Source of the DNA: Spirochaetae bacterium HGW-Spirochaetae-4
GTDB lineage: Bacteria; Spirochaetota; Spirochaetia; Sphaerochaetales; Sphaerochaetaceae
Assembly: GCA_002839335.1 (NCBI GenBank)
Contig: PGXU01000031.1
Coordinates: 1 to 33,182, forward strand
Length of the DNA stretch: 33,182 nt
Direction: 5' to 3'
Shown: in pieces, positions 13,139 through 27,890 of the stretch
Position numbering within the stretch: the stretch's first letter is position 1
Layout: the number at the start of each line of letters is the position of its first letter
The notes under the pieces: model-generated
The model's input: only the letters and a program-made list of their open reading frames with translations
The model's database searches: none
Told to the model about the DNA's origin: nothing
Made by a program: the position numbers and the translations under genes

Positions 13139-13343
13139 GAGTACCATGCAAGGGAGTACGTTATGGAAAGAAAAGACTGCGGATAAAAGATCCTATCATA
13201 GTCGGCGAGTTTTCCCTACTGTATTTCGTGCTGTTGTCTGCTTTTGACATACCTGGGCATATTCCGGTCCAGTTTGGGTTCTCGATTGTAGGGTTGCATG
13301 CCGAGAATAGACAACGGACAGGGGGGTTTTGTTGGAGGTAATG

Positions 13344-14108
13344 ATGAGCAAATCCAATGGCAATATTCTTGAAATCAAGGATCTTTGTGTTCGTGTAGGT
13401 ACTGAAGAAGTACTCAACCATATTGATCTTGAAATTCCGGATGGAGAAGTGCATGCCCTTTTAGGACAGAATGGGAGCGGGAAAACCTCATTGATGATGG
13501 CTATCATGGGATTTTCAGAATATGAAGTGACTCATGGTACTATCCTGTTCCAGGGGAAGGATATCACGGAATCCGATGTGTGTGAACGCGCTCGATTGGG
13601 AATTGCCCTCGCGCAACAGCGTCCGCCTACGATCAGGGGAATTACGCTCCGAGATATTCTTGCCTATGTTTTTCGAAATGAAGACAACCCGGAAAAGAAG
13701 ATCTCTGGACTCGCCGTTTCTTCACGTCTGGAGTTGTTCTTGGACCGGGATATCAATCATGGATTGTCGGGTGGAGAAATCAAACGCGCTGAACTGTTGC
13801 AGCTTCTCGCATTGTCACCCATTTTTTCCATGATGGACGAACCTGATTCTGGCGTGGATGTGGAAGCTCTCTCCTTGATGGGAGAACTGATCAATCGGCT
13901 GTTTACATCCGATCCGGATCATCCCGTACATAGAAAAGCAGGTCTGATCATTACGCATAGTGGAAGCATCCTGCGAAGCTTCCCTATCGATAAGGCGCAT
14001 GTGATGGTGAACGGGCAGATAGGGTGCTCGGGGAATCCTACCATTCTGATGAAGCATATCAACAATTTCGGATACGATTCATGTATACGATGCATGGGTG
14101 CGAGATGA
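13344..14108 (+). CDS. sufC: SufC-like Fe-S assembly ATPase
   Basis: 254 aa. Cytoplasmic ABC-type ATPase that drives the SufB-type scaffold in Fe-S cluster assembly. Walker A GQNGSGKTS (from 41, Lys47), signature LSGGEIKRAE (from 141), Walker B MMDEPDSGVD with Asp165-Glu166; the DSGVD stretch is a SufC hallmark. Two adjacent ATG codons exist (13341, 13344); GGAGG at 13334-13338 is 2 and 5 nt away, so 13344 is preferred. It carries a C-terminal CIRCMG Cys pair not typical of E. coli SufC. The SufB-like scaffold follows 90 bp later. Confidence 0.88.
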   Translation: MSKSNGNILEIKDLCVRVGTEEVLNHIDLEIPDGEVHALLGQNGSGKTSLMMAIMGFSEYEVTHGTILFQGKDITESDVCERARLGIALAQQRPPTIRGITLRDILAYVFRNEDNPEKKISGLAVSSRLELFLDRDINHGLSGGEIKRAELLQLLALSPIFSMMDEPDSGVDVEALSLMGELINRLFTSDPDHPVHRKAGLIITHSGSILRSFPIDKAHVMVNGQIGCSGNPTILMKHINNFGYDSCIRCMGAR

Positions 14109-14198
14109 GAAGCAGTTTCTGGCGGATAGGATCCGGATCGAGTGTGTAGGGCATATGGGAATATGTAAGGGTTCAACAAACTGGAAGGAGGATATGTC

Positions 14199-15302
14199 AT
14201 GGTTTTGAACGATGCTGATCGAGAGGCCTTGACGGTAACGGGAGTATATCTGGGAAGTACCGTACGTTCGGCTACCATCGTCGTGTGCGACCTTGCACAG
14301 GTTTGCCTGGAGAACAATACCCGTGGTTTTGAATTGATGCCGATTTCATCTGCATTGGAACGGTATTCTTGGTTGAGGGAACAATACTTTTTCAAAGCCC
14401 TCCCAGCTGACCTGGATGAAACAGTTTCACGTTGTGCGAAAGAGGTTGATCCCCTGGGCTTTTTTCTACACGTGGATAAAGGAGTTAAAATAGCTCTTCC
14501 CGTTCAGGCCGCCATGTACATGAAAAACGAAGATATTGTCCAGATGATCCATAATGTGATTATTCTGGAGGAAGATTCGGAACTGCAATTGATCACCGGT
14601 TGCTTAGCGGGACATGAGATAAAAACGGGTACCCATATTGCTATAGAAGAACAATACATAGGTAAGAATGCAAGACTTGTCAGCACCATGGTGCACGCTT
14701 GGGGTTCCGAACAATTCGTGTACCCCCATACGGGTACCGTTGTAGAGGAGGGGGGGCGGTTCGAAAGCAACTATGTTTCATTACGCCCGGCCAAGCACTT
14801 TGTCAGCAATCCACAATCATGGTTAATTGGAAAAGGGGCCTCGGCTAAGTATCTGACAGTTGTGCTCGCTTCCCCTGGTTCGGTTATCGAAACCGGCGGT
14901 ACCGTATACCTGAATGCCGAGGATACGTCAGCAGAATTGGCACACCGGGGTGTATGTACCGGTGGAGTCATGAACCAAGGAGGTCTTTTGGTGGGAACAG
15001 CTTCCTGTAAAGCTCATGTGGATTGTGCGGGCATGTTGCTTTTTTGTGGCGAGGGTGGGTATATCGAATCGGTACCGGGTTTACGATCAATGCATCCTGA
15101 TGCCCGGATGAGCCACGAGGCCAGTATTGGAAAGATTGCCCCGGAGCAGGTACAGTATCTGATGTCGAAGGGTATGGAGGAACGTGAGGCGATTTCCATG
15201 CTGATCCGTGGATTCTTGGGAACCGATGTCGAGGGACTTGGCGCTGAACTTGATGGGCAGATAGCCAAGATTGTTGAAGTTGCAGGGCATGGAGAAGATT
15301 AA
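14199..15302 (+). CDS. SufB/SufD-type Fe-S scaffold protein
   Basis: 367 aa, shorter than E. coli SufB (about 495). It has the right-handed beta-helix repeat pattern of the SufBD core: SELQLITGCLAGHEIKTGTH, IGKNARLVSTMVHAW, GTASCKAHVDCAGMLL, then the conserved C-terminal HEASIGKI and EQVQYLMSKGMEEREA followed by SMLIRGFLG, the SufBD signature. Together with SufC this is a two-gene minimal SUF set (SufBC, as in archaea and many anaerobes), without SufD, SufS, SufE or SufU. Start ATG 14199 has GGAAGGAGG. Several Cys could act as sulfur acceptor; which one is not clear. Confidence 0.87.
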   Translation: MVLNDADREALTVTGVYLGSTVRSATIVVCDLAQVCLENNTRGFELMPISSALERYSWLREQYFFKALPADLDETVSRCAKEVDPLGFFLHVDKGVKIALPVQAAMYMKNEDIVQMIHNVIILEEDSELQLITGCLAGHEIKTGTHIAIEEQYIGKNARLVSTMVHAWGSEQFVYPHTGTVVEEGGRFESNYVSLRPAKHFVSNPQSWLIGKGASAKYLTVVLASPGSVIETGGTVYLNAEDTSAELAHRGVCTGGVMNQGGLLVGTASCKAHVDCAGMLLFCGEGGYIESVPGLRSMHPDARMSHEASIGKIAPEQVQYLMSKGMEEREAISMLIRGFLGTDVEGLGAELDGQIAKIVEVAGHGED

Positions 15303-19544: not shown

Positions 19545-21218
19545 ATGAAAAAAATACCAATGGCTGTATTCAGCCTGTTGCTTGTTCTCGTATTGGTCGT
19601 GTCGTTCACCAATTGCAAGCTAGACGACGCACCTGCATTGAATTCGGATTTGACCCTTCGGTTCACTTCGGATCCCGGTGCCAGGACTCTCACACCCGAC
19701 ACCCTGAATCTTGCCGTCGAAACGTATGATATCAGCGGTACGGGACCTCACGGCGAAGTATTGTCTATTGTTGGAATCACAACCGACACCTATGTGCTGG
19801 AAAACCTGGCACCGGGCGAATGGTCTGTGGTTGCGAAGGGGAAAAACATCGACGGAATCGTTATCGTCCAATCGGCGGCAACGGTGATCAACCTCAACAG
19901 TGAGAACAACAACCTAATCCTCTCGCTGCTCCCGCTCGAAGGTTCGGGCACCTTTGGCCTTGATCTTTCGTGGCCAGTCGATTTGGTCGGCACACCGGTA
20001 ATCACCGCCGTACTTACGCCGGATGTGGGTGTGGCCATTCCACTTGATTTTGTCATCACGGGTACTAGTGCCTCGATTGTGCCTTTGACACTCCCACGTG
20101 GATACTACGAATTGACCTTGAAACTCACCGATGCATCGTTCGACTCCTACCTCGCGTGGTCCAAGGTCGAGACGGTCCTCATATTTGCAGACGCGACCAC
20201 AAGTGAAAACTGGGTCCTTGTCTCTACAGATATGAATGCAGCTACTCCTCAGAATCTAGGACTTGTCATCGATTCCGATACCAAGTCGCCTATAGAGATG
20301 GTTCTTACGGGAGCTGTCGCGGAACTTGCTTATGATACCAATATGACAGTGACCGCAACGGGAACTCCTGTGCCGACATCCTACAAATGGTTCTTGGATG
20401 CGGATGAGTTGGTTGGCCAGACGACATCCTCGGTAACCGTTGGTGTAGGTCTCGCTGAAAATACCGTCCATACCCTTACAGTAATCGGGAGGAATGGTGA
20501 CATTGCCGGCTCGGCGGATGCGACGTTTCTCATAGGGGAGGCTCCGATTATCATCTCGTCGGTGGACCTCAAGACTGCGGGTACGTACGTTATCCTTGCA
20601 CAGTCGGCGATCTCTGGTAATGCCGGAACTACCGTTGTCGGAGATATGGGTGCAAGTCCCGTAACCGCAGCGGCGATAACTGGGTTCGCCTTGGATCTCG
20701 ATATTTCGGGGACGTTCTCCACATCGACGCTCGTAAGCGGTTCAATCTACGCATCCGACTATGCCGAACCGACTCCGACAAACCTTGCCCAGGCGGTACT
20801 CGATTCGAACGATGCGTATGCAGCGGCCCAGTCAAGGGTCGAGCTTGAAGCTGTCGATACTCTGATCGGGGAAATTGGTGGTATGACGTTGGCTCCTGGC
20901 CTGTACAAGTGGAGCTCGGCTGTTTCGATCACCACCGATCTGACGCTTGATGGCCCAGCGAATGGTGTCTGGATATTCCAGATAACCGGATCACTCACCG
21001 AGGCGGCAAGTGCCCAGGTACTGCTCTCCGGCGGCGCGCTGGCTGAGAATATCTTCTGGCAGGTCGAAGGTGGAGTCCTTTTGGGCGCAAACTCCCATAT
21101 TGAAGGAGTGGTGTTGTCCGGAACGTCAATCGCACTTGGTGCAGGAGCTTCTGCCCATGGCCGGTTGTACGCAAAGACTGCGGTGACGTTGGATACATCC
21201 AATGTAACGCAACCTTAG
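19545..21218 (+). CDS. Lipoprotein with Ig-like region and DUF3494 (ice-binding-like) domain
   Basis: 557 aa. A signal peptide ends in SFTNC, with Cys24 as likely lipid anchor (a relaxed spirochaete lipobox). The N-terminal half is beta-rich and of unknown family (about 30-245). An Ig/PKD-like stretch follows (GAVAELAYDTNMTVTATG, SYKWFLDADELVG, about 250-330). The last 220 residues match DUF3494, the ice-binding protein beta-solenoid: LKTAGTYVILAQSAISG, GDMGASPVTAAAITGF, AYAAAQSR, MTLAPGLYKWSSAVSIT, GVWIFQITGSL, IFWQVEGGVLLG and HGRLYAKTAVTLD. In non-polar bacteria this fold is probably an adhesin or matrix protein. It is expected on the cell surface or in the periplasm. Start ATG follows CTGGAGGAAG, about 20 nt upstream, and a nearer AAGGAAA. 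Confidence 0.88.
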   Translation: MKKIPMAVFSLLLVLVLVVSFTNCKLDDAPALNSDLTLRFTSDPGARTLTPDTLNLAVETYDISGTGPHGEVLSIVGITTDTYVLENLAPGEWSVVAKGKNIDGIVIVQSAATVINLNSENNNLILSLLPLEGSGTFGLDLSWPVDLVGTPVITAVLTPDVGVAIPLDFVITGTSASIVPLTLPRGYYELTLKLTDASFDSYLAWSKVETVLIFADATTSENWVLVSTDMNAATPQNLGLVIDSDTKSPIEMVLTGAVAELAYDTNMTVTATGTPVPTSYKWFLDADELVGQTTSSVTVGVGLAENTVHTLTVIGRNGDIAGSADATFLIGEAPIIISSVDLKTAGTYVILAQSAISGNAGTTVVGDMGASPVTAAAITGFALDLDISGTFSTSTLVSGSIYASDYAEPTPTNLAQAVLDSNDAYAAAQSRVELEAVDTLIGEIGGMTLAPGLYKWSSAVSITTDLTLDGPANGVWIFQITGSLTEAASAQVLLSGGALAENIFWQVEGGVLLGANSHIEGVVLSGTSIALGAGASAHGRLYAKTAVTLDTSNVTQP

Positions 21219-21677: not shown

Positions 21678-21901
21678 AAGGACTGGGGCTCCCAAAGGTC
21701 TTTTCGGCGGAATCGACATATACCGGGCAACCGGACATGCCAGGCGGAGGTGCATGCGCGACCCATGTGTGACTTAATCACAGCCACAATTGGGGGATAT
21801 TGATATCATTACGACATTGAACTCCTGCCGCTGCCTGCATTTGGTTGCAGGTCGACATAGAAGGGGCAAGGGCTTTGGCGATGTATGGTCCTGTTGCTTG
21901 C

Positions 21902-21931
21902 TTGACCCTGAAAATTTTTGGTTCATATATT
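21902..21931 (+). promoter_or_regulatory. Promoter of the CoA-disulfide reductase gene
   Basis: TTGACC (21902-21907), an 18-bp spacer and TATATT (21926-21931). Predicted start near 21938, about 20 nt before the ATG at 21959. Confidence 0.6.
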
Positions 21932-21958
21932 CGGTTGTACATACCAGAGGAGAATAGG

Positions 21959-23977
21959 ATGAAAGATCTTTTGATAATAGGTGGAGTTGCGGCGGGAGCG
22001 ACCGCAGCGGCCAGGGCACGACGACTGGACAACGAGGTGAATATCACGTTGCTGGAGGCAGGGGCGGATGTTTCGTTCGCCAATTGTGGACTTCCGTACT
22101 ACATTGGCGGTGATATCGAGTACCGCTCCTCCTTGATCTTGGCAAGCGAGCAGACCTTCGACGACCAGTACCGGGTCAAGGTCCATACCCATACCCAGGC
22201 GATCGGGATCGATCGCAAGAACAAGAAGGTGAAGGCACGCAATACCCAGAGTGGCGAAGAGCGGGACTTTTCCTACGATTCGCTGATCTTGGCCCAGGGT
22301 GGCAAACCGGTGGTCCCCCCGCTTCCTGGAGTAGACAAGAATCACGTATTCCAATTGTGGACGCTTGAAGATATGGATGCCATAGACCACTATATCAAAG
22401 AACGGGAACCCAAGCATGCGGTGGTCGTAGGTGGCGGATTCATTGGTCTCGAGATGGTCGAAGCTTTGGCAAAACGTTCGATGGCGGTTACCCTTGTGGA
22501 AATGGCGCCCCAGGTGATGCCGAATCTCGAGGGTGAGTTCGCCGGTTTCATCACCAAGGAACTGCTGGACTTTGGTGTGGAGTTGAAACTGGGCAAGTCA
22601 CTGCAGGCAATCGAGGATACCCGGGTACTATTGGGCGACGGGACTGCGGTCGATGCCGATTTCGTGCTCCTTTCGGTTGGAGTGCGTCCCACCTTGCAGT
22701 TGGCCAAGGATGCGGGTCTGGAAATCGGCTTGTCGGGTGGATTGCTGGTCGATGCTACGATGCGCACCAGCGACCCTTCGATCTGGGCTGCCGGCGATAT
22801 GGTCGAGATAGCACACTCCGTCCATGGGAAACAGGTGCGTATGCCCCTCGCTGGTCCTGCCAACCGGCAGGGAAGGATCGTGGGAGAGAATGCCCTGGGT
22901 GGTTCGCGCACGTACAAGGGTGTCATGGGGACCTCGATTGTCAAGGTGTTCGAGGCTGTGGCCGGGTCCACAGGCATGGGACTGAAGGCGGCTAGGGATG
23001 CCGGGTACGATGCCGATGCCGTTGTGGTCCACAAAAGCAGCCATACCGCCTATTATCCCGGGTCCCAAAAGGTGAGCCTGATGCTCGTTTGGGATCGCGC
23101 GACCGGTAAGGTCCTGGGTGCCCAGGCCGCCGGCCGTGTGGGAATCGACAAGCGTCTCGATGTGATTGCGACGGCCATAGCGGGCGGGCTGACGCTGGAA
23201 AACCTTGAGGAGCTCGATCTTGCCTATGCTCCGCCATTCAACTCACCCAACGGGCCGGTGAATATGGCTGCCTTCACTGCGGCGAACCATGCGAGCGGAT
23301 TCAGTCCGTCCGTACTGGCGCAGGATATGGAGCAGTTTGTGATCGACCATCAACCGATTGTGATCGACTTGCGTGACCCGATCAGCTTCTCGAAAGCCAA
23401 TATTCGCAACACCAACAACTTGAGTCAGAATGTGATTCGGGACAATCTGGACCGCATTCCTTCGGGGCATCCGATCCTCCTGATCAGCGATGACGGGCAA
23501 AAGGGTCACGTGGTGCTGAGGATGCTCAAGGGCTCCGGTTTCGAACAGGTGTACAATGTGAGCGGTGGATATATCAGTGTCGAACGGTATGCCCGTGCGA
23601 TCGGCTACCAACACCTGAGCGTTGGCCTGTTTCCGGTTGAGCACAAGTCCGTGGAGGATATGGGCGAGAGTGGTGCACCACGAACAGCTGGCGAAGCTGT
23701 CGAAGATACCGATACCCCGGCATCCGATGGACCGATTATCCTGGATGTGCGTACCCCGATGGAGTTTTCCATGGGTTCTTTCCCCGGTGCCATCAATGTG
23801 GGGCTGGACAATCTCGTGCAGTGGGCACAGGCTATAGAGGACAAGGATCGCAAGATCATAGTGTATTGTGCCTCCGGAGCCCGCTCGAGCTATGGACTGC
23901 GTCTTCTTGCGCAACAGGGATTCACCAACGTGGAGAACGGTGGCGGTCTGCACGATATGATGTCGAGGGCGCAATAG
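21959..23977 (+). CDS. CoA-disulfide reductase fused to two rhodanese domains
   Basis: 672 aa from ATG 21959 (AGAGGAGA 5-6 nt upstream); an in-frame start at 21845 has no ribosome binding site. Residues 1-445 form a FAD/NAD(P)H pyridine-nucleotide disulfide reductase: FAD site IIGGVAAGATAAARARR, active Cys43 in SFANCGLPYY, NAD site VVVGGGFIGLE, WAAGDM. The family reduces CoA disulfide, CoA-persulfide or polysulfide. Two rhodanese domains follow: the first (about 455-550) has ISDDGQKGH at the active loop and lacks the Cys; the second (about 575-670) has VYCASGARSS with Cys637 and can carry a persulfide. This matches the CoADR-RHD (Npsr) type. It converges on the ArsR/DsrE operon. Confidence 0.92.
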   Translation: MKDLLIIGGVAAGATAAARARRLDNEVNITLLEAGADVSFANCGLPYYIGGDIEYRSSLILASEQTFDDQYRVKVHTHTQAIGIDRKNKKVKARNTQSGEERDFSYDSLILAQGGKPVVPPLPGVDKNHVFQLWTLEDMDAIDHYIKEREPKHAVVVGGGFIGLEMVEALAKRSMAVTLVEMAPQVMPNLEGEFAGFITKELLDFGVELKLGKSLQAIEDTRVLLGDGTAVDADFVLLSVGVRPTLQLAKDAGLEIGLSGGLLVDATMRTSDPSIWAAGDMVEIAHSVHGKQVRMPLAGPANRQGRIVGENALGGSRTYKGVMGTSIVKVFEAVAGSTGMGLKAARDAGYDADAVVVHKSSHTAYYPGSQKVSLMLVWDRATGKVLGAQAAGRVGIDKRLDVIATAIAGGLTLENLEELDLAYAPPFNSPNGPVNMAAFTAANHASGFSPSVLAQDMEQFVIDHQPIVIDLRDPISFSKANIRNTNNLSQNVIRDNLDRIPSGHPILLISDDGQKGHVVLRMLKGSGFEQVYNVSGGYISVERYARAIGYQHLSVGLFPVEHKSVEDMGESGAPRTAGEAVEDTDTPASDGPIILDVRTPMEFSMGSFPGAINVGLDNLVQWAQAIEDKDRKIIVYCASGARSSYGLRLLAQQGFTNVENGGGLHDMMSRAQ

Positions 23978-24095: not shown

Positions 24096-24127
24096 TGAAA
24101 GTTAGTCGACGTGTCGACTAACTTTCA
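24096..24127. repeat. 32-bp near-perfect palindrome between convergent genes
   Basis: Two 15-bp arms (TGAAAGTTAGTCGAC and its exact complement) separated by only GT. A bidirectional terminator is possible, but no T-run follows on either strand and a 2-nt loop is too tight for an ordinary hairpin. Its ends carry the GTTAG/CTAAC half-sites also found in the iron boxes, at wider spacing. Confidence 0.6.
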
Positions 24128-24161: not shown

Positions 24162-24455
24162 TCACGGTGCTCGGGAAAGAAGTTGAAGCAACTGGTCGAT
24201 AAAGACAGGATCTACCAGTGAGTAGCATCGTTGCTTTCCCTGCTCCGTATAGGTGATAAGATGGGCTTGCCGCAGTATGGAGAGGTGTTGGCTGATGTTC
24301 GGCTGGGCCCGCCCAAGCAAATCTCCCACATTCTGGACACACAAAGGACCCTCCCGCAAGACATCGAGGATGGCCAAGCGGGTAGGGTGGGCTATTGCTT
24401 TCAGAAGAGCTGCCTTCTTTTGCAAATCAGAATGTGAGGAGCTTGTCACTTTCAA
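24162..24455 (-). CDS. ArsR-family transcriptional regulator
   Basis: 97 aa if started at TTG 24455; GTG 24449 is the alternative, and a longer upstream reading is only the antisense of the DsrE gene end. Winged helix: LLKAIAHPTRLAILDVL, NVGDLLGRAQPNISQHLSIL, LITYTEQGKQRCYSLVD. Two Cys (39 and 77) flank the recognition helix and could form a thiol or persulfide switch, or a metal site; ArsR's Cys-Val-Cys motif is reduced to Cys-Val-Gln. It is the last gene of the operon with the ThDP enzyme and DsrE, overlapping DsrE by about 29 bp. Its likely operator is the palindrome at 26557. Confidence 0.85.
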   Translation of the reverse strand: MKVTSSSHSDLQKKAALLKAIAHPTRLAILDVLREGPLCVQNVGDLLGRAQPNISQHLSILRQAHLITYTEQGKQRCYSLVDPVFIDQLLQLLSRAP

Positions 24456-24786
24456 CTGTCCATTGGGCCAAGGCTGCCATGGTCGATTTTTCCGCACCTT
24501 CGAAATAGGGCTCTTGCTTATGGATGCCACAACGGGCCATGCAGGTACCGCACACCTTGACCTGTACGCCTTTGGCAATGAGGTCGCGAAGCATCTGGCT
24601 CAAGTCTTGGTCGTATTCCATGGGTTTCTTGTTCGAATCCCTTGCCAAATCGACCGAATCGTTCATGAGAAAGATTCGGACATCGTGTCCAGTCGCCTCG
24701 AGCTGGCCAGCCAGGCGCAGCGCATTCCAGGTCACATCTGTTCCGTCATACGGGGCATGGTTGAAAATCATCAAAACACTACTCAT
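24427..24786 (-). CDS. DsrE-family sulfur-transfer-like protein
   Basis: 119 aa, DsrE/DsrF-like fold: N-terminal SVLMIFNHAPYDGTDVTWNA with a Rossmann-like strand and helix, HDVRIFLMNDSVDLA, and a Cys cluster CGTCMARC (Cys79, 82, 86) after VQVKV. Family members carry or relay persulfide sulfur on such a Cys. Three Cys in a CxxCxxxC layout are more than the usual single one. Start ATG 24786 has AAGGAG. It is 17 bp after the ThDP enzyme gene and overlaps ArsR. Confidence 0.85.
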   Translation of the reverse strand: MSSVLMIFNHAPYDGTDVTWNALRLAGQLEATGHDVRIFLMNDSVDLARDSNKKPMEYDQDLSQMLRDLIAKGVQVKVCGTCMARCGIHKQEPYFEGAEKSTMAALAQWTVESDKLLTF

Positions 24787-24803
24787 TATTGTTGCTCCTT
24801 GTA

Positions 24804-26537
24804 TTATTGTGAGATCCTTTTGATATTGGGTCCCAATTCCATTTCCTTGTATGAAGAGCCGGGGCGGACGACCGGATAGAGAACTTCGTTGCGGTCGGTA
24901 ATGACCTCAAGAAATGCCGGGCCGTCCCACGCGAGCCATGCATCAATAGCCGACTCCAGTTCACTCGTCTGTACCACACGTTTGCTGAATCCGAACCCAC
25001 AGAGCTTTGCGATCTGATCGAACCTCACGTCCTCGTTACGACAGGTGGCAGAGTGACGCCTTCCATAACTGACATCCTCCAGGTTGTACACCATGCCATC
25101 GGCATGGTTGTTCATCAGCAGGATCTTGATCGGAAGGTGTTGGGTGCCGATAGTGAACAGCTCTCCCATGTTCATCCTGAAGCTTCCATCCCCATCAACG
25201 ACTATGACCGGGGATGAGGGCATCGCACTGACAGCCCCCACCGCAAGGGGCATGCCGCTACCCATCGTCCCGAAAGCTCCGCAGGTGAGGAAGGTCCTGG
25301 GTTTTTTCCTCTGGAGATATTGTGCGCTGAACAACTGATGGTTCCCGACTCCCGTGGTGACAATCGCATCATCGGCGAGTTTTCCGTTCAGTATCTCGAG
25401 TACGTTGGCCATCTGGATGGAAGGTGACTGCCTATCATAATCCAAAGGCCAACTTAGTTTCAGCTGGGCCGCATAACGACGCCAGGGTTCGATATCGAGG
25501 GTGATCGCATGCTTCATGCCCCAGTCGGTCAGGTCGTTGAGAAGGGTTGCCGCATTGCCGATGAAGGAAAAAGTCGGCCTCCGCTCATTGCGTATCTGCT
25601 GAACCTTCTCGGGATGGATGTCGATGAAGGCAATCTTCGCATGGATGGCGAACCCGACCTTTTCCGCTACCCGATCGTCCCAGCGGACACCAATGGCCAG
25701 GAAGAGGTCGTTCTCCTGGATAATCGTATTCGCCGAGGGGGTGCCGAACATTCCCAGCATCCCCTGGTGCATCGCTCCCGTCTCGTCAACCACGCCCTTC
25801 GCCATCAGTGTGTTGACGGAAGGGATACGAAACAATCCGTTGAACCGCCTGATGGCCTTGCTCCCCTCCTGGTTGTTCAGACCTCCCCCCAGATACAACA
25901 GCGGGTGTTTCGCCTGGCACAGCAAGTCGAAGAATTGCTCGCATTGCTTGTCCGACAGATGCACGTCCTGCTCGTAGACATCACTGAACCGGGTAAGAGG
26001 GAGCCCTTCATAGGTGACCTCCTTCTGTTGGAGGTTCAAGGGAAGGTCTATCACAACGGGACCGGGTTTTCCGGACTTGGCGAGAAAATATGCATCCTTG
26101 ATAACCATCTCAAGGTTGTTGATCGATTTGACCGAGTATACTTTTTTGGCAGTGGGACCGAATACTGAAGCCACATCGATGTGTTGGAAGGAGTCGGTTC
26201 CAAGCTTGTGTTCGGGGACTTGTCCTGCGATAACCACGAGCGGGATGCTGTCGGCGTAACTGTCTGCCACAGCGGTGAGCGTATTGGTTATCGCCGGGCC
26301 GCTGGTAACGATGGCAACTCCCACCTGTTCGCTCGCGCGGGAGTACCCGGCGGCACTGAAGGCGGAGCATTGCTCATTCGCATTGATGACTATCCGGATG
26401 GAACTCTTGGCAAGTTCATCCATGACAGGCAGGATTGCCGCTCCGGTATATCCGAAAATGCAGGAAACCCCGAGATCTTCCAGACTCCGAACAATAAGCT
26501 CTGCTCCTGAAAAGAGATTTTTTTCCACTTTTTCCAC
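24804..26537 (-). CDS. Acetolactate-synthase-like ThDP enzyme
   Basis: 577 aa, all three domains of the large-subunit AHAS family. Catalytic Glu55 in NANEQ, FAD/structural part in the middle, ThDP motif from GDG (449-451) to NN (476-477). The substrate loop reads GMVYNLED: the Trp of canonical AHAS (GMVxQWQ) is Leu486 and its Gln neighbours are Asn and Glu. No regulatory small subunit gene (ilvN) follows; instead DsrE and ArsR do. So a role in branched-chain amino acid synthesis is doubtful; a pyruvate-type 2-oxoacid or sulfonate-type substrate is possible (inference). GTG 26537 is used; GTG 26528 with GGTGG is the alternative. Confidence 0.85.
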   Translation of the reverse strand: MEKVEKNLFSGAELIVRSLEDLGVSCIFGYTGAAILPVMDELAKSSIRIVINANEQCSAFSAAGYSRASEQVGVAIVTSGPAITNTLTAVADSYADSIPLVVIAGQVPEHKLGTDSFQHIDVASVFGPTAKKVYSVKSINNLEMVIKDAYFLAKSGKPGPVVIDLPLNLQQKEVTYEGLPLTRFSDVYEQDVHLSDKQCEQFFDLLCQAKHPLLYLGGGLNNQEGSKAIRRFNGLFRIPSVNTLMAKGVVDETGAMHQGMLGMFGTPSANTIIQENDLFLAIGVRWDDRVAEKVGFAIHAKIAFIDIHPEKVQQIRNERRPTFSFIGNAATLLNDLTDWGMKHAITLDIEPWRRYAAQLKLSWPLDYDRQSPSIQMANVLEILNGKLADDAIVTTGVGNHQLFSAQYLQRKKPRTFLTCGAFGTMGSGMPLAVGAVSAMPSSPVIVVDGDGSFRMNMGELFTIGTQHLPIKILLMNNHADGMVYNLEDVSYGRRHSATCRNEDVRFDQIAKLCGFGFSKRVVQTSELESAIDAWLAWDGPAFLEVITDRNEVLYPVVRPGSSYKEMELGPNIKRISQ

Positions 26538-26556
26538 CGCCTGTACTTGGATTAGG

Positions 26557-26580
26557 ATTCTAATATTCGAATATTAGAAT
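26557..26580. promoter_or_regulatory. 24-bp perfect palindrome, likely ArsR operator
   Basis: Two exact 12-bp arms (ATTCTAATATTC and complement) meeting at TTCGAA. AT-rich 12-12 palindromes containing ATATTCGAATAT-like cores are typical ArsR/SmtB operators. It covers the -10 box of the ThDP-DsrE-ArsR operon, so binding should block transcription and autoregulate arsR. Confidence 0.75.
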
Positions 26581-26599
26581 ATGGTGAAGGCACCGTCAA
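26571..26599 (-). promoter_or_regulatory. Promoter of the ThDP-DsrE-ArsR operon
   Basis: TTGACG (26599-26594), a 17-bp spacer and TAATAT (26576-26571) on the minus strand. The -10 lies inside the 24-bp palindrome. Confidence 0.65.
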
Positions 26600-26613: not shown

Positions 26614-27726
26614 TCAGTGGATCACGGTTTCGAGCAATGCGACCACACGCTCCAGCTCTCCTTTGGTGGTGAAACGGCCAAGGCTGAATCGTATTGCGCC
26701 CCTGGCTCGTTCCTCGCTTGCTCCGATGGCACGGAATATGCCGGACAGGTTTGCATTGCCGCTGTGACACGCCGAGCCGGTGGAGGCGGCTATCATCGGT
26801 AGCGAGCCAAGGATATCTGCTCCATTGTATCCGAGAAAGCTCACATTGACGGTATTGGGCAACGAGTTTCCTAGGTCCCCGTTGAAGAATACCCCTTCTC
26901 CAAAATTTTGCTTCAGGCGTGTGATGAAATATTCCCGCAAGCCTTCGGTCTTCGGGTCGGGAACTTGTGCGATGGCACAGGCCTTGCCCAATGCGACAGC
27001 CAGCAATGCCGATTCGGTACCTGCACGTCTTCCCACTTCCTGGGGACCTCCGTGGACCAGTGGCTCGATGTCCACTCCATCTCCCACATAGAGGGCCCCC
27101 ACACCTTTCGGGGCGTAAACCTTGTGTCCTGCAATGGTCAGCATATCCACATGCATGGCTTGCACATCTATGGGAATCTTTCCAACCGATTGGGCGGCGT
27201 CGGTGTGGAACAGAACTCCCCGCTCATGTGCGATGGATCCCAATGTCGCGATGTCCTGTATGGTTCCGATTTCATTGTTCGCGTGCATGATGGAGACAAG
27301 GATCGTATCGCTCCTGATTGCTTTGATGAGATCGGCAGGATCGACGCGGCCCAAAGAATCCACCGGGAGGTAGGTGATTTCTGCCCCGAAACGGGTAAGG
27401 AAGGAAAGCGGCTCAAGAACCGCCGGATGCTCGATTGAAGAGGTGACGATGTGTTTCCCCTTTGCAGACTTGGAGAAGAACACCCCCTTTATGGCAAGGT
27501 TGTCGGCTTCACTTCCTCCGCTCGTCAGCACAATCTGGGACGCATGGGCTCCGATCCGATCCGCAATCTGCTTTTTTGCTGCCAGATATGCTTCCTTTGC
27601 CCGTTGCGATGCCCAATGCAGGCTTGAGGGATTTCCCCAGGCGTCCTCCAGGAAAGGCAGCATTGCCTTTGCAACCTCGGCATCTATGGGAGTACTGGCA
27701 TTGTAGTCCAGATAAATTTCTTTCAT
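26614..27726 (-). CDS. Cysteine desulfurase (NifS/IscS-like)
   Basis: PLP enzyme that takes sulfur from cysteine as an enzyme persulfide for Fe-S and thiol cofactors. 370 aa from ATG 27726 (AGGAGA 6 nt upstream); an upstream reading to 27789 lacks a ribosome binding site. Motifs: YLDYNASTP at the start, SSIEHPAV (His100), HTDAAQSVGK, PLP Lys202 in IAGHKVYAPKG, and catalytic Cys320 in STGSACHSG with the long loop of group I enzymes. It lies directly upstream of the ArsR-controlled operon, 76 bp away on the same strand but separated by that promoter. It could supply sulfur for the SufBC set. Confidence 0.93.
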   Translation of the reverse strand: MKEIYLDYNASTPIDAEVAKAMLPFLEDAWGNPSSLHWASQRAKEAYLAAKKQIADRIGAHASQIVLTSGGSEADNLAIKGVFFSKSAKGKHIVTSSIEHPAVLEPLSFLTRFGAEITYLPVDSLGRVDPADLIKAIRSDTILVSIMHANNEIGTIQDIATLGSIAHERGVLFHTDAAQSVGKIPIDVQAMHVDMLTIAGHKVYAPKGVGALYVGDGVDIEPLVHGGPQEVGRRAGTESALLAVALGKACAIAQVPDPKTEGLREYFITRLKQNFGEGVFFNGDLGNSLPNTVNVSFLGYNGADILGSLPMIAASTGSACHSGNANLSGIFRAIGASEERARGAIRFSLGRFTTKGELERVVALLETVIH

Positions 27727-27890
27727 AACGGCTCTCCTGTTCATATACTGCAAGTTTAGCACCAATCGGGAGCTGGATATAATCCCCATCCTTCCCCCAT
27801 TGGAGGAGGGGCCCTTTCTGGCACGGACAGGAGCTGCTTGTGCCCTTGCCCTTTGTCAAATCCACTCCAGAGGTGGGAACAATTTTTTGC

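Follow-up and report, generated by a model that had tools for sequence, protein, structure and literature searches.

A distinct AHAS-like ThDP enzyme encoded with DsrE and ArsR proteins in a putative thiol- or sulfur-responsive operon of Sphaerochaetaceae

The closest described counterparts of the proteins considered here are the large subunits of AHAS (IlvB, IlvI and IlvG), the Escherichia coli protein YchN, and small regulators of the ArsR family. In AHAS II, residue Trp464 is associated with the preference for 2-oxobutyrate, and Xsc is a related ThDP enzyme that has the catalytic Glu in common with the protein described below. In E. coli, the gene for YchN is not linked to one for a ThDP enzyme. 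The As(III)-responsive ArsR of E. coli carries three cysteines in a CVCDLC motif, and the sulfane-sulfur sensors BigR, SqrR, YgaV, SoxR and sHdrR contain one cysteine in helix α2 and a C-terminal one (Cys31 and Cys98 in YgaV, PMC9774250; Cys50 and Cys116 in sHdrR, PMC12423496).

The window analyzed here, i.e. the whole 33,182-nt stretch of contig PGXU01000031.1 from Spirochaetae bacterium HGW-Spirochaetae-4, carries on its minus strand an operon (24162–26537) that encodes, in this order, an AHAS-like ThDP enzyme termed ThDP-X, a DsrE protein and an ArsR regulator (Table 1). The 17-bp gap between the first two genes and the 23-bp overlap between the last two make a single transcript likely. ThDP-X comprises 577 residues if read from the first GTG (26537); comparison with the 89% identical protein of the related genome G107 indicates that the second GTG (26528) is the more likely start. 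For arsR, the GTG listed in Table 1 is most likely the start; the resulting overlap with the end of dsrE is also seen in G107. The sequence-only reading had proposed that ThDP-X acts in persulfide or organosulfur metabolism rather than in isoleucine/valine synthesis. The observations behind this proposal all held up. ThDP-X contains Leu486 at the aligned position of AHAS Trp574/Trp464, there is no IlvN partner at the locus (ilvN sits on contig C10, alongside ilvB), DsrE has three cysteines and ArsR two, and a cysteine desulfurase gene flanks the operon on the same strand. The gene set itself is real and conserved.

Table 1. Features of the ThDP-X operon, its surroundings in the window, and ilvN genes linked to ThDP-X in other genomes
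Feature	Position	Strand	Remarks
CoADR-rhodanese	21845–23977	+	converges on arsR
Terminator-like 15-bp inverted repeat	24096–24127		lies between arsR and the CoADR-rhodanese gene that converges on it
arsR, 95 aa	24162–24449	-	GTG start at 24449; NF033788 83.8 bits (cut-off 55); HTH_5 45.4 (cut-off 22)
dsrE, 119 aa, YchN-like DsrE/F family	24427–24786	-	PF02635 78.8 bits (cut-off 22.7)
ThDP-X, AHAS-like ThDP enzyme	24804–26537	-	three TPP_enzyme Pfam domains; TIGR00118; separate clade; AHAS-fold model
Perfect 24-bp palindrome ATTCTAATATTCGAATATTAGAAT, likely ArsR operator	26557–26580		inverted repeat; upstream of ThDP-X
Sigma70-like promoter TTGACG-17-TAATAT	26571–26599	-	match in a consensus scan only; -10 inside the palindrome
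NifS-type cysteine desulfurase	26614–27789	-	76 bp upstream of ThDP-X; TIGR03402 413 bits, below cut-off 530.75
Full-length ilvN linked to ThDP-X	L115:7904–8407, L118:7934–8449, L119:4257–4769, L120:4209–4766		Desulfobulbales

Among 139 genomes of the order Sphaerochaetales, orthologs of ThDP-X and dsrE were found in the same 11 genomes and are adjacent in all of them, with ThDP-X identities of 71–89% where the gene is intact, a co-occurrence that exceeds chance. Restriction of the gene order to this strain, which would have refuted the sequence-only reading, was thus not observed. arsR follows the pair in only four of the 11 genomes (G000, G107, G112 and G122). These arsR-bearing genomes bracket the arsR-less group on the tree, so that one loss of arsR would be the simplest reading. 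The pair itself can decay, since one partner is broken in each of two Sphaerochaetaceae genomes, ThDP-X in G109 (C22:14847–16706) and dsrE in G114 (C1:275277–275561), which suggests that the operon is dispensable in these hosts.

Relatives of ThDP-X were collected from ∼85,000 species genomes by a scan with the peptide patterns GTD[SE]FQHI and GVRW[DN]DRV, which partly predetermines conservation within the patterns and overlooks intermediates that lack them. The scan yielded 75 loci (47–89% identity, a few of them partial) from Spirochaetota, Verrucomicrobiota, Lentisphaerota, Omnitrophota, Fibrobacterota, Campylobacterota, Nitrospirota, Thermodesulfobacteriota, Methanosarcinaceae and others, many of them anaerobes. 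All loci form one clade (SH-aLRT of 100 in the large tree; bootstrap/SH-aLRT of 100/99 to 100/100 in smaller trees), which stands apart from every AHAS sampled; it joins AHAS and is far removed from Xsc. ThDP-X thus does not cluster with anabolic AHAS, and the clade may be either sister to AHAS or derived from within it. Although AHAS is the nearest curated profile, ThDP-X stays below the TIGR00118 cut-off (487.8 versus 538.35 bits). Judged from these comparisons, ThDP-X is a distinct AHAS-like subfamily and not a canonical AHAS. No description of the gene set or the enzyme subfamily was found in the openly accessible journal literature, and the branch is apparently undescribed so far. Genes of the clade are probably labeled as acetolactate synthase or unspecific ThDP enzyme in many anaerobes and methanogens, and naming the subfamily would reduce mis-annotation and point to a directly testable carboligase activity. 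An identity as Xsc was also considered and was ruled out by the tree (split of 100/100) and by residues: both enzymes share the catalytic Glu, but the acceptor Arg289 of ThDP-X is Phe in the Xsc sequences compared. The Xsc profile TIGR03457 is absent from the best 25 NCBIfam matches of ThDP-X, and a search of the window's genome at E 1e-80 gave no match to Xsc.

ThDP-X shares the three-domain ThDP fold of AHAS large subunits at ∼31–37% sequence identity, and the best structural matches of its model (pLDDT 89.8) are AHAS, with TM scores of 0.92–0.93. Glu55, Phe117, Gln118, Met263, Arg289, Met425, Asp450, Asn477, Met482 and Val483 are kept as in AHAS. Four of these residues, namely Glu55, Phe117, Gln118 and Arg289 (corresponding to the catalytic Glu, Phe109-Gln110 and Arg276 of AHAS II), are present in 71 of 71 members, three of the four falling inside the peptide patterns of the scan. 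From the established AHAS literature, we take Glu55 to be the catalytic residue, the Phe-Gln pair to form the donor site, and Arg289 to bind the acceptor carboxylate. Other positions differ from AHAS in nearly all members (Gly33 to Ala, His54 to Asn, Glu119 to His, Lys167 to Leu/Met/Ile, His264 to Phe, Phe286 to Trp, Leu480 to Asp, Gln485 to Asn and Trp486 to Leu), and the changed Trp, Lys, His and Gly positions are invariant or nearly so in AHAS. Position 486 is occupied by Leu in 55, Ile in 14, and Val and Tyr in one each of the 71 members. Cys199 is found in 71/71 members, at a position occupied by Ile, Leu or Val in AHAS. Since pocket residues of AHAS are replaced clade-wide (Trp486, Lys167, His264, Gly33, His54 and Leu480), the acceptor may differ from pyruvate and 2-oxobutyrate.

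The reading that we favor, with a probability of about one half, is that ThDP-X represents a new subfamily of AHAS-type carboligases acting on pyruvate and was recruited into a thiol/sulfur-responsive operon in spirochaetes. It draws on the position of the clade, the conserved residues, the AHAS-like model and the relatives beside ilvD or ilvN, and on the sulfur side on the pairing of ThDP-X with dsrE and the operator-like site that accompanies arsR. Against it count the replaced pocket residues, the ilvB and ilvN already present in nearly all hosts tested, and the lack of dsrE in 27 of 30 ThDP-X genomes tested. The AHAS fold and catalytic residues would also suit an ordinary additional AHAS isozyme of branched-chain amino acid synthesis, in whose neighborhood the sulfur genes are incidental, and some lineages carry the corresponding links. 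ThDP-X lies beside ilvD in Chthoniobacter (L090; 1041.7 bits, above the curated cut-off), and it adjoins ilvN in L115 and L118 and ilvN together with an aminotransferase gene in L119 and L120, all from Desulfobulbales (Table 1); in two of these Desulfobulbales genomes (G503 and G506), no other full-length ilvN was found. We nevertheless regard a plain isozyme as unlikely. Canonical ilvB and ilvN are kept in nearly all ThDP-X hosts tested, and in the window's genome they are located at C10:63206 (36% identity of its product to ThDP-X) and C10:52801, respectively. Moreover, many invariant AHAS residues are altered, the TIGR00118 cut-off is missed, and the linkage to dsrE is tight and recurs in different gene orders.

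The different gene orders were seen in other lineages. In L081 (a Spirochaetia MAG, Tobar) the arrangement is dsrE-ThDP-arsR, in L080 (Chitinispirillaceae) it is ArsR-rhodanese, ThDP, DSBA-like, NifS and dsrE, and in L071 (Verrucomicrobia) it is ArsR-rhodanese, ThDP, methyltransferase, nucleoside phosphorylase (PNP), two DsrE proteins and methyltransferase. In Victivallaceae, dsrE is located away from ThDP-X, beside a methyltransferase gene related to that of L071. Mutually related methyltransferases of the class I SAM type are also encoded close to dsrE or ThDP-X in members of Lentisphaerota, Verrucomicrobiota and Omnitrophota (L203:2937–3563, L071:7719–8402 and L076:10762–11382).

The presence of dsrE, NifS, rhodanese and DSBA genes beside ThDP-X in several phyla, the pocket residues unlike those of AHAS and the invariant Cys199 could mean that ThDP-X takes a direct part in the metabolism of persulfides or organosulfur compounds, acting for instance on a sulfur-bearing 2-oxo acid like 3-mercaptopyruvate while DsrE brings in or takes away the sulfur. 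This possibility is as doubtful in our view as that of a plain isozyme. Most members, among them those of methanogens, Nitrospirota and sulfate reducers, lack both a recognized sulfur gene in their operon and, anywhere in the genome, a dsrE of this kind, which is missing from 27 of the 30 ThDP-X genomes tested; and most relatives, including most methanogen copies, stand alone. Some copies adjoin ilvD or ilvN, and the clade lies outside Xsc. The proposal of the sequence-only reading that sulfur metabolism replaces an isoleucine/valine role stood only in part. In its favor, relatives in three further lineages have dsrE, NifS and ArsR-rhodanese genes next to them. On the other side, the donor site and the acceptor Arg of AHAS are kept, AHAS is the best structural match, and the loss of the Trp on which the proposal drew also occurs in a true AHAS (E. 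coli IlvB of AHAS I has Gln there); in addition, ArsR does not have the known persulfide-sensor cysteine pair and the CoADR-rhodanese gene is not conserved. Spirochaetes and a small number of other lineages probably use the enzyme in a sulfur- or thiol-responsive program, and the neighbors of the relatives are as suggestive of 2-oxo acid/amino acid chemistry as of sulfur handling by the enzyme itself.

The three cysteines of DsrE (Cys79, Cys82 and Cys86) are located in the sequence CGTCMARCG, of which CGTC is invariant across 11 homologs. The sole PDB match is E. coli YchN (1jx7; 42% identity), with Cys79, Thr81 and Cys82 common to both proteins, and the DsrE subgroup is marked off from YchN by its third cysteine (MARCG) and the N-terminus PYDGTDVTWN. 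The TusD/DsrE equivalog profile TIGR03012 was not reached (31.4 versus a cut-off of 89.25 bits). A DsrE protein 71% identical to the spirochaete one is encoded on a conjugative plasmid of Legionella oakridgensis (L141; NZ_CP004007.1, 5998–6354), where its gene adjoins one for a DMT transporter, with a gene for arsenic resistance two genes away.

The two cysteines of ArsR, Cys37 and Cys75, are common to all five operon ArsRs that were aligned. In the structure model they lie in strands 36–38 and 73–78. These two strands usually pair in winged-helix proteins, which suggests that the two thiols may be close together in ArsR. The protein resembles the sulfane-sulfur sensors in its ArsR fold, the number of cysteines and its sulfur-gene context, but differs from them in that its pair is located in the strands. 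A sensor of the known persulfide type was ruled out by these positions, with Asp at the position of YgaV Cys31 and no C-terminal cysteine, and ArsR does not reach the NF040642 profile (47.9 versus a cut-off of 155 bits). Cys37 aligns with Cys32 of E. coli ArsR, the first of the three CVCDLC cysteines, and the ArsR of L081 has extra Cys in this region. Together with the distance of two genes between the Legionella dsrE and an arsenic resistance gene, this would fit an operon responsive to arsenite or a different soft metal(loid), which ArsR would sense and for which DsrE would provide a thiol buffer. Such a response seems improbable to us, the least favored of the explanations considered, as the other two cysteines of the E. 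coli motif are missing and the identified neighbors include no gene for arsenic transport or reduction.

The palindrome upstream of ThDP-X is the only perfect one of 24 bp in the window, and no second copy of it occurs in the genome when up to 3 mismatches are allowed. The corresponding sites of the three other ArsR-containing genomes match it at 24, 23 and 19 of 27 positions, and those of the ArsR-less genomes at 15 of 27 at most; the G112 palindrome (23/27) is not above shuffles when taken alone. In L081, which has arsR, no recognizable operator of this sequence was found. The occurrence of the palindrome upstream of ThDP-X only in the four arsR-bearing genomes of the order fits an autoregulated repressor, and the strongest indication that ArsR acts at the palindrome is that regulator and site were lost together.

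In the favored carboligase reading, for which we infer repression, ligand, substrates, product and sulfur carriage, ThDP-X would most likely decarboxylate pyruvate on ThDP and transfer the resulting two-carbon unit onto another 2-oxo acid, which the conserved Arg289 would hold in place, with no need for IlvN in the window's organism. In Sphaerochaetaceae it would be made together with the YchN-like DsrE, probably a carrier of cysteine-bound sulfane sulfur, under the control of the small ArsR repressor. ArsR bound to the palindrome over the -10 element would block the operon and would be released once Cys37 and Cys75 were bridged, persulfidated or bound to a soft metal(loid), so that rising reactive sulfur would cause the operon to supply an alternative acetolactate-type activity along with sulfur handling. 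A new carbon/sulfur reaction, in which a 2-oxo acid that bears sulfur or a persulfide on DsrE is cleaved by ThDP-X or serves as its ligation partner and a new type of two-strand-cysteine ArsR sensor is the switch, is a more speculative possibility than either a plain isozyme or a direct role in persulfide or organosulfur metabolism. Among the settings of the clade, the spirochaete operon offers the most promising access: its context suggests a likely stimulus together with one operator, and the putative sensor cysteine pair is unlike that of known persulfide sensors.

Of the genes that surround the operon, the NifS-type desulfurase is a probable functional neighbor. A desulfurase remnant is present upstream of the ThDP-X gene in G107 too, and the NifS encoded between ThDP-X and dsrE in Chitinispirillaceae is 53% identical to that of the window, compared with 42% for the nearest paralog within the window's genome. 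However, a SufC/SufB-like pair faces arsR directly in G107, convergent with arsR-dsrE-ThDP, so the desulfurase could instead be an Fe-S partner of the Suf pair. In the window, genes for a SufC-like ABC ATPase and a SufB/D-core protein are located at 13329–15302 (+). The CoADR-rhodanese gene reported by the sequence-only reading is indeed present and converges on the operon, but this neighbor is not conserved. It was rejected as a member of the system, its stretch being absent between the Suf genes and arsR even in G107. CoADR-like flavoproteins encoded near L077, L082 and L120 are a faint hint of a CoADR link to ThDP-X. The stretch missing from this place in G107 also encodes, at 19545–21218 (+), a large protein that ends in an ice-binding domain (PF11999, 223 bits), and the intact flanking genes on both sides of the operon vary among relatives. 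The CoADR protein contains two rhodanese domains (23400–23977, +), of which the first seems to be without the active-site cysteine and the second appears to retain it (YCASGARSS).
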